Virus record (IMG/VR): IMGVR_UViG_3300021368_001032
Span: 1-44,605 of that record
Source of the DNA: a virus
Length of the DNA: 44,605 bases
Reading direction: 5' to 3' (one strand)
Shown: positions 7,779 through 15,545 of the stretch, piece after piece
How the letters are laid out: the number at the start of each line of letters is the position of its first letter
Numbering within the stretch: the stretch's first letter is position 1
Position numbers and translations under genes: made by a program
Notes under the pieces: model-generated
The model's database searches: none
What the model saw: only the letters and a program-made list of their open reading frames with translations
What the model was told of the DNA's origin: nothing

Positions 7779-8390
7779 TTATTTAGGTGTCACAGGAGCA
7801 ACTTGAAAATTGAGACTAAATGTGATACGAGTTTTAGTCCCTCGATGTGGTGACACTAAGTGATGATAATGTGATGGGAAGATAAGTATATCTCCCTGCT
7901 GAATACTGGGTTTAGTTGTTTGTTGTGTTGGTGATTTAATAGTATCACTCAACCCCTGCATTTGATATGCAGAATGTTCTGTATTGTAGAACATAAACTC
8001 ACAACCATCGTCATCATTTAGAGTATGGAAGTATACCATACTCAGGTTAGATGTTGGTGTGCAGTGATCATGAACTTCCTGAGAATCTCCTGGTTCATAA
8101 CGATTTGCCCAGGCATTTTGTGGCAGGATTTCTATATCACATGCTGCACCAACATTGTCAATGAACTCATCCCATACTGGTTGCAACATATCTAACCAAG
8201 ATGTCCAAGGTTCTCCACCTTGAGGCATCTTTTGCCATGATGATTGCACAGTACAATTCCATGCAGGAGGTTGATGGAAATTGTTATCATTACTCAAAAG
8301 TTTAGAGAACATGTCAACAGTTTTTTGCTGTTGTTCTTCACCTAAGGTAGTTTGAAAATACCATTTAGGACAAAATACTTGTAGGGTCAT
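7779..8390 (-). CDS. 2-oxoglutarate/Fe(II)-dependent oxygenase-like protein (203 aa)
   Basis: The double-stranded beta-helix signature is visible: EVHDHCTPTSNLSMVYF (H107-D108-H109), then GDILIFPSHYHHLV, and RITFSLNF at the C-terminus. This resembles the putative 2OG-Fe(II) oxygenase group in which a His-rich motif precedes an LS-x-VYF strand. Substrate is unknown; cyanophage members may hydroxylate proteins or nucleic acid. The first iron motif reads H-D-H rather than the classic H-x-D, so which residues bind iron is uncertain. It is translationally coupled to the 63-aa gene (ATGA, 8387-8390). It is one of three such oxygenases in the window. Confidence 0.75.
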   Translation of the reverse strand: MTLQVFCPKWYFQTTLGEEQQQKTVDMFSKLLSNDNNFHQPPAWNCTVQSSWQKMPQGGEPWTSWLDMLQPVWDEFIDNVGAACDIEILPQNAWANRYEPGDSQEVHDHCTPTSNLSMVYFHTLNDDDGCEFMFYNTEHSAYQMQGLSDTIKSPTQQTTKPSIQQGDILIFPSHYHHLVSPHRGTKTRITFSLNFQVAPVTPK

Positions 8391-10099: not shown

Positions 10100-10438
10100 C
10101 TACTGTTCTTCATCTTTATTTATCTTCTTAACTTGTTTATTACTCCACAATGCAAATAAGATGATAGATGCATACAGCAGAGTATCATCTAACATGACAA
10201 GAAAGAATATAACTGAACCGCCATACTTGATAAAATCAGGCAGAGGAGAGATGATCTTGGCAAATACTTTACGATATGATTTCTCAAACTTAAAGTAACC
10301 AAGGGCACCAAGTGTAACTACAAACTCACTGTATGGGATAACAAAATACAGTGACAAAATAATAAACAAGGGCCAATAATGCCGCTCAGGGATCTTAGCG
10401 ATCAGGTGAACATAACGTTTTACAAAATTCTTAAACAT
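10100..10438 (-). CDS. membrane protein with two transmembrane segments (112 aa)
   Basis: A basic N-terminus (MFKNFVKRYVHLIAKIPERH) is followed by a first hydrophobic stretch (YWPLFIILSLYFVIPYSEF). After an amphipathic loop comes a second stretch (GGSVIFFLVMLDDTLLYAS, continuing ILFALW) and a charged tail NKQVKKINKDEEQ. It overlaps the 2OG oxygenase gene by 8 nt. Size and topology would suit a holin or an inner-membrane accessory protein; nothing in sequence proves that. Confidence 0.65.
   Translation of the reverse strand: MFKNFVKRYVHLIAKIPERHYWPLFIILSLYFVIPYSEFVVTLGALGYFKFEKSYRKVFAKIISPLPDFIKYGGSVIFFLVMLDDTLLYASIILFALWSNKQVKKINKDEEQ
10117..10124 (-). promoter_or_regulatory. late promoter GATAAATA of the 238-aa fibre gene
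   Basis: The minus-strand octamer GATAAATA lies 26 nt upstream of the ATG, inside the last codons of the membrane-protein gene. It fits the T4-like late consensus nnTAAATA. Confidence 0.6.
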
Positions 10439-10928
10439 AGTTGAAGTTAATTACAATACGAAATTCTTTGTCGGTTGTGTTAGTTCCTGTGTGTCTGATT
10501 GAATTGGGAAATGTGACAAGTCTATTTGCTACAGATTCAACCTTTGTCCCATCCTCAAACTTAGTATATCCATCACATGGAGTTATGTATAGGATAGATG
10601 TCTTTAAGTAAGGACGATCTTCAGCATCTAAAACATCAACATGCATACCATGTTCAACGATGGTATCACCACCCATGACAAGATTTGCTTTGATTTTAAT
10701 TATTGCACAGGGTTGAATTTTCTGTAGGACAGGATACACGAGTTCAATACTGTTGTCAATTGGTGCATGTCTTGCATAAAACATGTGAACCAATTGTGCA
10801 TTGCGATTGTAATTTTCTGGTGTATCATCTACAATTTCAGATAATGTCCAATTAAGAACAGAACTGGTCATCCCCCGGTATATCATATTAAATGTATCTG
10901 GTGGGAGAAAATTGTCTACGACATTCAT
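10431..10928 (-). CDS. 2-oxoglutarate/Fe(II) oxygenase (165 aa)
   Basis: The iron-binding facial triad is visible: EHGMHVDVL (H96-x-D98) and a distal His in FPNSIRHTGTN (H146). FRIVINFNYV (R157) probably carries the 2-oxoglutarate-binding Arg. The length is that of the minimal prolyl-4-hydroxylase-like jelly roll. It follows the U32-like/methyltransferase fusion with a 4-nt overlap and precedes a membrane protein, all in the tail-fibre block. Modification of a tail protein or host surface is an inference from position. Function in cyanophages is otherwise unknown. Confidence 0.85.
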   Translation of the reverse strand: MNVVDNFLPPDTFNMIYRGMTSSVLNWTLSEIVDDTPENYNRNAQLVHMFYARHAPIDNSIELVYPVLQKIQPCAIIKIKANLVMGGDTIVEHGMHVDVLDAEDRPYLKTSILYITPCDGYTKFEDGTKVESVANRLVTFPNSIRHTGTNTTDKEFRIVINFNYV

Positions 10929-12646
10929 TTTTCAATCACTGCAACATAGATACCATTCCACCAATCATTCTCATCCTCAGGAGTTTCTGTGCGGATAGTG
11001 CGTTCATAGATAACATTTTTGTCCTCTGTGAATGTGTTAGTATAGTTAACTACGCCCTCAAAGTTAGCGTCATCAACAATCAGGATATAACTATCCTCTG
11101 CTTGTTTATGGATGTGTTCTAGATTAGCAACCATGTTCTCATCATTCTGTGCATCATAGAAGATAACATTGGGTTTGTATTGTTCATTAAACTCTACTTG
11201 CAACAGAGGTTTGACACAGAAACCAACTGAACAATCAACATTCATCCATTTCTCAGCGTTTTGTATGAAACTATCAATAGGATTATCAATCTCATACTTA
11301 TCAGCGAGACTGCGATTATGAGGTTTCACAACACCATCAGAATAATCATCAATAGCATATGCTTTGACAGCACTGTTATTCATCAATGCAGCAAATAGTG
11401 TGCTACCAATGTAACATCCAGCATCAACATATACTGTTCCTCTTTCAGAGCAGAGATTATTCAAGAAATGTCTGATCTTTGTTGAAGATAGACCCAAGAC
11501 ATCATATCCTTCAGGATTAAATCGTGAGTTATCATCAACAGCAGCATCGATTGCACGGATAACTCTATCTACGAGGGGATTCATTGTTCGCTGTTGTTTC
11601 TTCAAATGGGATTCTACTACAGTTTCACAGTATTTGCAATCCCAACAGTTAAACTGACATGTTTTAATCTTTTCTCTCCAGATGTCAATGGGTCTGTCTT
11701 TAACATCAACATCATCCATGTACTTCTTGTACTCAGGATACATTAAGATCTCATAATTTGCCCATCGTTCAATAAGATCCATGGACTCTTTGAGACGCAT
11801 AGCATTCTCTCTACCATGCATCTTAAACACATCGATACCATTATCTAAGAACCATTGCCAATCACTCCTCCAGGGCGGTAAATTAGCACTCTTAAGTTCA
11901 CTTGCAGGGTCTACTTGATCCCATCGTGAGCATGAAACTCTGCTAATCTCACTGTCAAAATACTGAGGTTCTGTGCCAGTTCTTGTTGAGTTGTACTGAT
12001 AATGTTCAGGCATGATAGGACAACCGCCCCAACAATGCTCATTAGCAAGTAATGATAATTCGATAGGATTACCATTCAACTCACAATATTCTTTTGCTTT
12101 TTGTATCATCACAAAAGCATTTTGATCACGCATGATGTCACGATCAAGATTGATATAATGAAATCCTGCACTAGCAAGAGTTACAATCTCATTAGGTTTA
12201 GATACATCACGCAGAATAGTATTCTTAATCTTTAACTCTGGATACTCTTTCTGTATCTGACCAGTCATCACCCATGATGTATGTGGCAGAGTAGCAGTTC
12301 TGACGCCAACATCATATAGACTCTTGAAGTTCTTGATAAACATATCAAGATTCTTTTGATCTGGTCTCACCCAAATGTTATTGAATGTAGCAGACAATGG
12401 GATACTAGTTCTCTCTGCAATATACAGAGCATTTCTGATAGCATCCTTAGATGATTCAGTCGTCACAAAAGTATCCCCCATCGCATCTTGTGTGAATGGG
12501 GGCATACGAGATGTGAAATACAGGTCGTAGATTAAATTATTATACCTAAGAAGAAATGGAATAAAATGATCTTCTAGATAATCAGGATCCAATTTGGGGT
12601 TGATCGGCAGACTGAAGGAACCTATCTGTGATGTTGTTGGTTGCAT
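10925..12646 (-). CDS. U32-peptidase-like Fe-S domain fused to SAM methyltransferase (573 aa)
   Basis: Residues about 50-250 resemble the TIM-barrel U32 family: SLLANEHCWGGCPIMPEHY (C205, C209) with a further Cys at 239. In characterised U32 proteins such Cys residues bind a 4Fe-4S cluster in RNA or cofactor hydroxylation. A second cluster, TCQFNCWDCKYC (C330, C334, C337, C340), links to the C-terminal class I methyltransferase: VYVDAGCYIGSTLF (motif I, 407-416), then AIDDYSD and ILIVDDANF. The fusion suggests an oxidoreductive step combined with methyl transfer on a small molecule, RNA or protein. It lies between two coiled or chaperone-like proteins and a 2OG oxygenase. The start overlaps the upstream gene by 65 nt. 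Domain calls are from motifs only. Confidence 0.7.
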   Translation of the reverse strand: MQPTTSQIGSFSLPINPKLDPDYLEDHFIPFLLRYNNLIYDLYFTSRMPPFTQDAMGDTFVTTESSKDAIRNALYIAERTSIPLSATFNNIWVRPDQKNLDMFIKNFKSLYDVGVRTATLPHTSWVMTGQIQKEYPELKIKNTILRDVSKPNEIVTLASAGFHYINLDRDIMRDQNAFVMIQKAKEYCELNGNPIELSLLANEHCWGGCPIMPEHYQYNSTRTGTEPQYFDSEISRVSCSRWDQVDPASELKSANLPPWRSDWQWFLDNGIDVFKMHGRENAMRLKESMDLIERWANYEILMYPEYKKYMDDVDVKDRPIDIWREKIKTCQFNCWDCKYCETVVESHLKKQQRTMNPLVDRVIRAIDAAVDDNSRFNPEGYDVLGLSSTKIRHFLNNLCSERGTVYVDAGCYIGSTLFAALMNNSAVKAYAIDDYSDGVVKPHNRSLADKYEIDNPIDSFIQNAEKWMNVDCSVGFCVKPLLQVEFNEQYKPNVIFYDAQNDENMVANLEHIHKQAEDSYILIVDDANFEGVVNYTNTFTEDKNVIYERTIRTETPEDENDWWNGIYVAVIEK

Positions 12647-13463
12647 AATCAGTTAATACTCCATTAGTTTCAAACATTTGAGGACCTTGACCTTCTAGCA
12701 TCTTCTCTACTTTTGCTTCTGCTGCCTCTTTAATCTTGCCAACATTGATATTCATTGCGGTAGAATATGTCAGAGCAAGATCAGCAACTGCTGCCTGATC
12801 TTCAGGACACATCATCAACATACTGTCAAGATTTCCTGCTTGAATTCTACCAGTAGTTAACAGATCAAGAGAGCATTGTTTTGCCATACGAGCAATCCAA
12901 TACTTATGTTCTTCTAGTTCTTCATTCTCTTTGTTGAGAACAGTTTCAGTGAGTTTTTTCATGTTAGTCTCACCACCAGTATGCTCTTTGATGATTCTAA
13001 GTAAACCATTGATCTCATACTTACATTGTTGAACTTTGTTCATGTAAATCTGCTTGTCACACATAAGCAATTCAATTTCATATTGCTTATCTTGTTTGGC
13101 AAAGCGATCTTCTTCCTGTTCCATCTCGTGTTTAACACGCTCGATGTCATTCAGGGTTCTTTTATAATTGATAGTTACTTTTTGCAGTCCGTTCAATCGT
13201 GTTTGAATCTCCATCACTGCTTGACGAATTTGTCGCCAAGGTGTGACCTGTGAATTGACTACAAAGTATTTGTTTTGGTATTCAGTTTGCCCAAAATATT
13301 GGGATTCAGACCAGTTTATCAAATCACTATCAAAGTCATTGATATCCCATGCTGAATCACCATCAATGTCTTTCAGATCATTCAATACATCATAAAAGTT
13401 GTATGTATCAGAACTTGATTCCGTACTCAAAGGGTTCTTTTCTAATGATTCTTCCATCGTCAT
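12582..13463 (-). CDS. coiled-coil protein, tail-fibre-associated candidate (293 aa)
   Basis: I start it at MTMEESLEKNPL (ATG 13463); a TTG at 13481 would add six residues. The N-terminal part is acidic (NDLKDIDGDSAWDINDFDSD). The centre is a long charged coiled coil (RTLNDIERVKHEMEQEEDRF, then QDKQYEIELLMCDKQIYMNK), and the C-terminus is helical. It overlaps both neighbours. Position directly downstream of the 247-aa putative chaperone suggests a fibre assembly or scaffolding role; no family is certain. Confidence 0.65.
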   Translation of the reverse strand: MTMEESLEKNPLSTESSSDTYNFYDVLNDLKDIDGDSAWDINDFDSDLINWSESQYFGQTEYQNKYFVVNSQVTPWRQIRQAVMEIQTRLNGLQKVTINYKRTLNDIERVKHEMEQEEDRFAKQDKQYEIELLMCDKQIYMNKVQQCKYEINGLLRIIKEHTGGETNMKKLTETVLNKENEELEEHKYWIARMAKQCSLDLLTTGRIQAGNLDSMLMMCPEDQAAVADLALTYSTAMNINVGKIKEAAEAKVEKMLEGQGPQMFETNGVLTDYATNNITDRFLQSADQPQIGS

Positions 13464-14151
13464 TTTTAATGCACCGTCCAAATGCTAAACATTGTTGTTC
13501 GCTCATTGCAATACCATAATAATCCTCAAGGAATACATTAATATCTGCAATGTTCTTTGCCTCCTTTAATTTAGAGATCAAAGTTTGTTCTTCGATAGCA
13601 AGATCATAGAGTTTTGTTTTCCACTCTTCTTGCTTTGTTACTACTTTAGCAGCAAATTCACCTGTAGTCAATCCCCTCAACTCTGCCAATCTATGAATCA
13701 GTTTAGTTTCAGTTGTATCATCTAACAGGTATGCATTAGATTCTGCAACCTGATCATCCCAAGTTGCTTCCTCTAACTGGGAATATTTAGTACGCAACCC
13801 ATTATATCTTTTTTCGTAAATCTCTTGAATTGATAGACGGATAACCGCCAACATGAACGGTCTTACATAATCATTTTTGATTGCATCTTCAACAGGAATC
13901 TTTCCCTTTTCACCATCTTCCCCATATGCAGAAACCTCTGCCCTGATTTCACCCCAGTATCTACGACCAAAATCACCCATTTTGTGATCAAATCGCAGAT
14001 AACTAATGTGCTGTGGAATATATTGGAAATAATTATCATCGAGTTCATAAAACTCTAGACCAAGTTCACCACCAAGTTTTGTCCCCCAAATTCCAACTTC
14101 GGGGAATCTCTGTTCGTCAATGACGATAATATCAGGATTAGTTTTTGTCAT
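13408..14151 (-). CDS. putative tail-fibre assembly chaperone (247 aa)
   Basis: The N-terminal half is of unknown type (MTKTNPDIIVIDEQRFPEVG). The C-terminal half has the layout of phage tail-fibre assembly proteins: TWDDQVAESNAYLLDD, then RLAELRGLTTGEFAAKV, followed by helical repeats of Lys/Glu. This Trp/Gln/Ala-Tyr-Leu then RG...FA pattern is common next to fibre genes. It directly follows the 464-aa fibre gene with a one-base stop/start overlap. Chaperone function is inferred. Confidence 0.6.
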   Translation of the reverse strand: MTKTNPDIIVIDEQRFPEVGIWGTKLGGELGLEFYELDDNYFQYIPQHISYLRFDHKMGDFGRRYWGEIRAEVSAYGEDGEKGKIPVEDAIKNDYVRPFMLAVIRLSIQEIYEKRYNGLRTKYSQLEEATWDDQVAESNAYLLDDTTETKLIHRLAELRGLTTGEFAAKVVTKQEEWKTKLYDLAIEEQTLISKLKEAKNIADINVFLEDYYGIAMSEQQCLAFGRCIKNDDGRIIRKEPFEYGIKF

Positions 14152-15545
14152 CAGAAGTTAGGAATAGTTGTACCATAATCATATGCTGTGCTGCCATCAT
14201 CATTAACACCAGAAACAGCAGAAGAGGAAGAACAGTGTGCAGAACTCATGCCACTGTGTCCCTGAGGTTGTGCAGTAGAACCTAAGTTAGTAACACCATC
14301 AGTTTGATAGTTAACTTTGAAGGTGTTGTTATTCTGAGAACCATTGTAGTTACCAAGACAGTAACCTTTTCTCATACCCATTTCAAAGTTTTCTTCACCC
14401 ATCTGACCAAAGTTTCTATTCTGCAACAGAACACCAGTAGTATCATCAATTCTAGCATTACCATTCGTATTGTTATTACCAGTGCCACAGTATAAATGTC
14501 CCAACATTGTCGATAACATTTTTTTCCAACCATTACCACCAGGACCATTATCCCAGTCTGTCCAGGTTTCTGTTGCCCAGTTAAGAGATTCTCTTACAGT
14601 GTTTCTCTTATGCCATCCTCTTAATCTACCATGACCACCCCATGTAGGGTCAGCACCACCATCCCCCTGATTAGGCGGGAATCCTGATGTTCTCATGACC
14701 TCAGTTTTGAGGTTAAATGCATCAGTTCTTGCATTACCACCACCAGTTAGGTAAGAATAAGCTCCAGAGAATACATGATCCTGTAAAGAACCCATTGATC
14801 CTCTGTTTACAGTCATATCCCATTGTGACTGGTGTGCAATACCAGACTCAGAAGTCATACTGAAACCAGAAGTATAGTTAGAAGAACCTCTGTAAGTATT
14901 TTCCATCGAATGGAAGAAATGGCGAGTATCATTCCAAGATCCTGCCATATAAGCACCAGATCTATCCAAAGTGTCACCTAAGTTTGTAGATGTATCTGTA
15001 GCATGAACTGTACGGTTTACATTACTCCAGGGTGAACCTCCTCTATATCCTCCACCAACATATCCATGTGTCCAGATTCTTGCCATGGACCATCCGCTGG
15101 CATTTTGTGCATCAAATGCCCAATAAGTTTCAGTACCATCAGATTTAAGGACAGCACCTTCAGAATAATCTTCACTATAACGATTAGCAGATTGTGGAGG
15201 TGTACCACCAGCACCTGCAATTGGTCCCCATTCTGTAACATTAGTTGCTGGGTTGAAGGAGTAACCTTCAAATGTTCTGTCGGTAGAATTATATCTGAAT
15301 AATCCTTCAATTGGTGTTGATGGTCTTTGACCAGTTGTTCCAACAGGAACAACCATGCCGTCACTTCCAGCAAGATCAAGAGTGACTCTTGGAGTTGTTG
15401 TATTGACTCCGACTCTATCATTGACAGTATCAACATACAATGTTCCAGCATCAAAGTTGAAGTTGCCACTGGACTCCAACTGCATGAAAGCAGTACCACC
15501 GCCACCTGCTAGAGATATAACCTTATCTACATTTAATTGTGACAT
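14151..15545 (-). CDS. tail-fibre protein (464 aa)
   Basis: The leader MSQLNVDKVISLAGGGG matches that of other fibre genes here. Next comes the shared module GTTGQRPSTPIEGLFRYNST. The C-terminal domain is Gly/Asn/Trp-rich (YWAFDAQNASGWSMARIWTH, then GYVGGGYRGGSPWSN) with repeated GNNNTNG-type turns. I believe this domain recurs in several cyanophage virion proteins. It is probably a receptor-binding fibre exposed on the virion. It is preceded by the late octamer GATAAATA and followed by its likely chaperone. Confidence 0.8.
   Translation of the reverse strand: MSQLNVDKVISLAGGGGTAFMQLESSGNFNFDAGTLYVDTVNDRVGVNTTTPRVTLDLAGSDGMVVPVGTTGQRPSTPIEGLFRYNSTDRTFEGYSFNPATNVTEWGPIAGAGGTPPQSANRYSEDYSEGAVLKSDGTETYWAFDAQNASGWSMARIWTHGYVGGGYRGGSPWSNVNRTVHATDTSTNLGDTLDRSGAYMAGSWNDTRHFFHSMENTYRGSSNYTSGFSMTSESGIAHQSQWDMTVNRGSMGSLQDHVFSGAYSYLTGGGNARTDAFNLKTEVMRTSGFPPNQGDGGADPTWGGHGRLRGWHKRNTVRESLNWATETWTDWDNGPGGNGWKKMLSTMLGHLYCGTGNNNTNGNARIDDTTGVLLQNRNFGQMGEENFEMGMRKGYCLGNYNGSQNNNTFKVNYQTDGVTNLGSTAQPQGHSGMSSAHCSSSSAVSGVNDDGSTAYDYGTTIPNF

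Follow-up and report, generated by a model that had tools for sequence, protein, structure and literature searches.

A gene of T4-like cyanophages (T4-GC 354 in P-SSM4, P-HM2, and S-ShM2, where it is annotated as a hypothetical protein) encodes a 573-aa protein in which a predicted U32-like barrel is joined to a class I methyltransferase domain, and whose constant partners are the C-terminal domain of a presumed tail-fibre adhesin and two small genes, not a 2OG oxygenase. There is about an even chance that this protein is a bifunctional enzyme that would hydroxylate and then O-methylate the T4-GC 351 adhesin, with both chemistry and substrate deduced rather than observed. The fuller claim, that a divergent U32 enzyme would oxidise a side chain of a receptor-binding adhesin and the fused domain O-methylate it as a new protein-modification system, is put forward more tentatively, at somewhat below an even chance. 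Supporting observations are the predicted folds, the conserved residues, the fusion and natural splitting of the two halves, the strict association of the enzyme with the adhesin domain, and the duplication of the whole cassette.

The window, i.e. the whole stretch of 44,605 nucleotides that was analysed (IMGVR_UViG_3300021368_001032), belongs to a T4-like cyanophage genome. On its minus strand, fibre genes are followed by the adhesin, 352, 353, the enzyme, a 2OG oxygenase, a small protein, and a short fibre-like ORF. The enzyme, a match to PHROG 1458 (phrog_1458, unknown function), is encoded at 10925..12646 and the 165-aa 2OG-Fe(II) oxygenase (phrog_274; T4-GC 100) at 10431..10928, with a stop/start overlap of 4 nt. 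Both ORFs, the motif NEHCWGGCP, and the cysteines C330, C334, C337, and C340 are located where an earlier note on this DNA had placed them. All further features given below lie on the same strand.

The U32-like barrel and the methyltransferase half

The N-terminal 360 residues form an eight-stranded barrel in an AlphaFold model (pTM 0.80), with the U32-like (beta/alpha)8 barrel assigned to residues 1-350 (11597..12646). Among solved structures, the U32 protein MK0906 (5D88) matches best, at Z 15.3 and an rmsd of 3.4 A over 223 residues, while other barrels reach Z 13.1 at most in the same comparison; the earlier concern that the N-terminal half might lack a U32-like fold is thereby removed. 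The model is of low confidence around residues 203-246, which form the cysteine loop. By profile comparison, the barrel aligns with PF01136-positive relatives, namely two enteric T4-like phage 'peptidases' and one Desulfocapsa protein (hhalign probability 97.8, E 7e-13), whereas the match of the barrel family to canonical U32 enzymes is weak (probability 24.8, E 8e-4). PF01136 does not score above its cut-off in the window protein or in eight relatives and is reached via intermediates only, phmmer with the window protein yielded nothing useful in the PDB, and the barrel profile retrieved no U32 entry there. The U32 claim is thus based on fold and profile-profile evidence.

TrhP/YegQ, RlhA, UbiU-UbiV, and MK0906 (PF01136) have the same (beta/alpha)8 barrel with cysteines after strand 7, and the U32 oxidases share with the window barrel a motif of the FKxxGR/KIEGR type at strand 8. 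In the model, NExC of the motif NEHCWGGCP (residues 202-210) follows directly after strand 7 (NEHCWGGC, residues 202-209, with the first cysteine pair C205/C209, at 12020..12043) and FKxHGR lies at strand 8. Three cysteines are therefore found near the usual U32 site, and four more come after strand 8 as C330-X3-C334-X2-C337-X2-C340 (11627..11659), a probable second metal site. Among 30 diverse members, the N and E of NEHCWGGC and the cysteines C205, C209, C239, C330, and C334 never vary; almost the same holds for C337 and C340, one partial sequence stopping short of them. Each of the 109 fused relatives has both the seven-cysteine pattern, in which the third position may be C or A, and the FYD and DDxN motifs of the methyltransferase, and this answers the doubt whether the cysteines are conserved among homologues. 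They presumably bind one or more Fe-S clusters.

This arrangement departs from that of known U32 enzymes. The canonical motif is CX6CX15CX3/4C (PMC6747719, PMC11574389); in the window barrel, CX3C replaces CX6C, C239 is the third cysteine, and CX3CX2CX2C is additional, and none of the 109 members has CX6CX15-16C. The Glu on which TrhP depends (E162; PMC6599085), placed eight residues ahead of the first cysteine, is likewise missing: all 30 diverse members aligned have a hydrophobic residue, never Glu, at position 197. Because both the canonical cysteine motif and the catalytic Glu are absent, the barrel is regarded, on sequence comparison and modelling, as a divergent branch of the U32 superfamily; the barrel fold of the original U32 reading is retained, membership in the canonical U32 enzymes is not. 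An altered chemistry is suggested by the changed cysteine arrangement with its two probable metal sites and by the lack of the Glu. A radical SAM enzyme was considered and rejected, since CX3CX2C (C330-C337) comes after strand 8, whereas radical SAM enzymes carry theirs after strand 1; in an enteric relative, CX3CX2C is spaced differently from the window protein.

The C-terminal part of about 200 residues (residues 367-573, 10928..11548) adopts a class I methyltransferase fold and is assigned, via the Z scores of its structural relatives (14-16), to O-methyltransferases of the COMT/TrmR type. TomG (16.1), SafC (15.6), and TrmR (15.1) share this fold, and COMT-type enzymes were found as well. 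The only PDB sequence below E 1e-3 in the profile search is TrmR/YrrM of Bacillus subtilis, the tRNA ho5U34 O-methyltransferase (5ZW3; E 4.7e-4). Since the sequences are only weakly similar and the structural matches rank about equally, the resemblance to TrmR is a lead, not an assignment; the window domain also differs from TrmR in being fused to a barrel and in having no genomic tie to tRNA. Methyltransf_24 scores above its cut-off in five relatives (L049, L073, L092, L103, and L113), the window copy having no Pfam match to it, and the acidic residues D498, D525, and D526 as well as N528 are conserved. Fold, profile, and conservation hence agree with the earlier description of a U32-like barrel joined to a class I methyltransferase.

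Constant partners in cyanophage genomes

Of 50,697 phage records, 123 contain a homologue of the enzyme, and the gene is accordingly no chance ORF. The T4-GC 351 adhesin C-terminal domain and the 353 gene are each found in 123 records too, and the 352 gene in 121. For the enzyme, 353, and the adhesin domain, the breakdown is identical: 77 Synechococcus phage, 38 Cyanophage, and 8 Prochlorococcus phage records. These are comparisons of record totals including many near-identical isolates, so that independent events are far fewer. In the window, the 352 homologue (phrog_1604) lies at 13408..14151 and the 353 homologue (phrog_1409) within the mechanical ORF 12582..13481, its true start probably being internal. 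The 351 homologue (phrog_1417, 'sericin 1 precursor-like'; 14151..15545) is a probable tail-fibre adhesin, taken as such because it is located among fibre genes and has a fibre-like N-terminus. The portion that invariably accompanies the enzyme is its C-terminal domain (14154-15113), with invariant Gly, Tyr, Glu, Asn, and Ser residues including Y167, Y199, and Y400 (numbering of the window copy); no usable search pattern could be derived from the diverse adhesin alignment.

The reverse test, starting from the adhesin domain, found the barrel gene in all 89 testable viral contigs, part of which overlap the earlier enzyme-based set. The connection with the tail-fibre block is thus stronger than first supposed. 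When environmental contigs were clustered at 85% identity, 29 of the resulting 30 non-redundant loci carried 352/353 no more than 5.5 kb upstream of the enzyme; the exceptions, L085 and L118, form one cluster of the S-ShM2 type with 352/353 located farther away. The cassette of adhesin, 352, 353, and enzyme is present twice in six loci (L023, L032, L039, L041, L043, and L044), where each adhesin has its own enzyme. The enzyme copies of these tandem cassettes are 51-53% identical, which indicates that the duplications are old, and the adhesin C-terminal domains are 38-43% identical where both are readable.

Nearly all relatives in the series L092-L119 are fused barrel-methyltransferase proteins, while in L212, L215, and L216 the two halves are separate genes with an overlap of 22 nt. 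Since they are either fused or split into overlapping genes beside the same adhesin, both activities appear to serve one task. A stand-alone barrel with 40% identity was found in a Desulfocapsa assembly (L089:1-4352), flanked on one side by the end of an RTX repeat protein and on the other by a C39-type/type I secretion ABC exporter gene. This context would fit a role with secreted adhesins in bacteria, although it is seen once only, in a sequence that probably contains sequencing indels. A bacterial origin was tried as an explanation and dropped: 93 genomes from the family of this assembly hold only the stand-alone copy already known.

Both halves come from known superfamilies. Open-licence literature on cyanophage U32 proteins, on U32 proteins with phage tails, and on tail-fibre modification yielded no description of such a system, and no report of the fusion, the cassette, or a U32 protein substrate was found there, in line with the earlier note, to which no system of this kind was known.

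Proposed reaction and competing readings

In the proposed mechanism, the U32-like Fe-S barrel would oxidise, most likely hydroxylate, an adhesin side chain, after which the COMT/TrmR-like domain would move a methyl group from SAM onto the new oxygen, with 352 and 353 possibly presenting or assembling the adhesin. The order of steps would be that of TrhP followed by TrmR on tRNA. In B. subtilis, TrhP1/TrhP2 and TrmR are encoded in one operon, and the 5-hydroxyuridine that these two U32 proteins help to form is then methylated by TrmR (PMC6599085). A natural TrhO-TrmR fusion exists in Phytophthora and Phaeodactylum (PMC6599085); it too joins a hydroxylase to an O-methyltransferase, but TrhO is a rhodanese-type, O2-dependent enzyme and acts on tRNA. 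Modified residues among Y167, Y199, and Y400 are a guess. Since the canonical Glu and CX6CX15CX3C are absent, the reaction may differ from prephenate-dependent hydroxylation. Against the proposal, genomic linkage with the adhesin is not proof of the substrate, and no characterised U32 enzyme has a protein substrate, known ones being RNA bases and ubiquinone precursors (PMC11574389); the window enzyme would differ from the U32 oxidases in its fused methyltransferase and its link to an adhesin. If correct, this would be the first U32 enzyme acting on a protein and the first adhesin known to require such a modification cassette. It would explain a gene hitherto annotated as hypothetical in the phage records examined, and reveal a novel means by which a virus decorates the protein that grips its host: an abundant group of ocean viruses would chemically alter its host-recognition protein by a cassette that moves and duplicates with it. 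Such a modified adhesin may also be the reason that part of the binding surface escapes models of phage adhesins built from sequence.

The precedent of TrhP and TrmR also suggests an RNA target, with a fused enzyme making 5-methoxyuridine or a similar base in host or phage tRNA and its location among fibre genes being accidental. Each half resembles one enzyme of the TrhP-TrmR pathway, RNA hydroxylases are among the known U32 enzymes (PMC6599085), and the window encodes tRNAs with U34 (Thr UGU, Val UAC, and Leu UAA). However, P-SSM4 has the enzyme gene and no tRNA genes, though a host tRNA could still be the target, and the gene tracks one adhesin domain in all tested loci and duplicates with it, for which an RNA enzyme would have no evident reason; on these grounds a tRNA role is less likely than an adhesin role and is considered distinctly improbable. 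If the adhesin is the substrate, the fused enzyme could act on it by other chemistry, such as C- or N-methylation or a crosslink. This is unlikely, although the altered cysteines, the probable presence of two metal sites, and the lack of the catalytic Glu would be compatible with it, as the predicted structure of the methyltransferase is that of an O-methyltransferase, with D498, D525, D526, and N528 retained.

The linkage to a fibre gene would equally suit a barrel that serves as a maturation peptidase or assembly factor for the adhesin, the methyltransferase being a separate tool. U32 proteins were originally named peptidases, and related phage genes are still annotated in this way; yet the conserved cysteines suggest bound metal clusters, motifs of four cysteines are found in most U32 families, which today count as Fe-S proteins (PMC6747719), and the window protein matches no protease family in Pfam, leaving this reading very improbable. 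The related 'peptidase' of enteric T4-like phages (phrog_5757) is PF01136-positive and has barrel motifs in common with the window enzyme, but it lacks a methyltransferase and is located among nucleotide-metabolism genes instead of fibre genes. U32-like genes without a methyltransferase lie near thymidylate synthase in enteric T4-like phages (L081:2539-3666 and L082:2494-3660) and near a dCTP deaminase-like gene in L088 and L091; these four perhaps have a role in nucleotide or DNA modification.

The least probable reading, held to be only a slight chance, makes barrel, 2OG oxygenase, and methyltransferase one obligate pathway, close to the redox-plus-methyl pair that the earlier note had proposed. 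The overlapping neighbour is indeed a 2OG/Fe(II) oxygenase as first assigned: its HxD...H...R motif is complete and conserved in the family alignment, with PF13640 at 20.9 bits below the cut-off of 27. A 2OG gene, counted from the phrog_274 family plus other 2OG enzymes, is found no more than 4 kb downstream of the enzyme in 20 of 28 non-redundant loci, compared with 6 of 30 within 5.5 kb upstream; besides the 4-nt overlap in the window, each tandem cassette copy of L023 and L039 has its own 2OG gene. Nevertheless, the phrog_274 family occurs in 225 phage records at 345 places, often without the enzyme, and is about twice as widespread as the enzyme; P-HM2, S-ShM2, and the split-gene phages lack a member of this family beside the enzyme. 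As an obligate partner it is ruled out by these counts and loci, and the pairing has to be given up in favour of a frequent, optional neighbour. The neighbourhood survey in cyanophages recommended earlier thus upheld the linkage to fibres and adhesin, with 352/353 and the adhesin domain as the constant elements, and did not uphold constancy of the 2OG gene.

Other tailoring genes near the fibres

The emerging picture is that of a tailoring island behind the fibre genes, with the barrel-methyltransferase as its constant element. In many cyanophages, phrog_274 members are annotated as 'DNA endonuclease V / denV'. As the window neighbour has no Pfam endonuclease match and a complete 2OG motif, this identity was rejected, and from the sequence the name looks wrong. 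A second 2OG-Fe(II) oxygenase is encoded in the window at 7779-8390 (PF13759, E 4.3e-14).

A flavin tryptophan halogenase (PF04820, E 1.8e-93) lies near the enzyme and the fibre genes in a few loci, at L092:8239-9804 and also in L096, L112, and L114-L116. Cyanophage prnA was earlier guessed to protect against an antibiotic (PMC2984593); modification of virion proteins by PF04820 halogenases is an idea worth a test.
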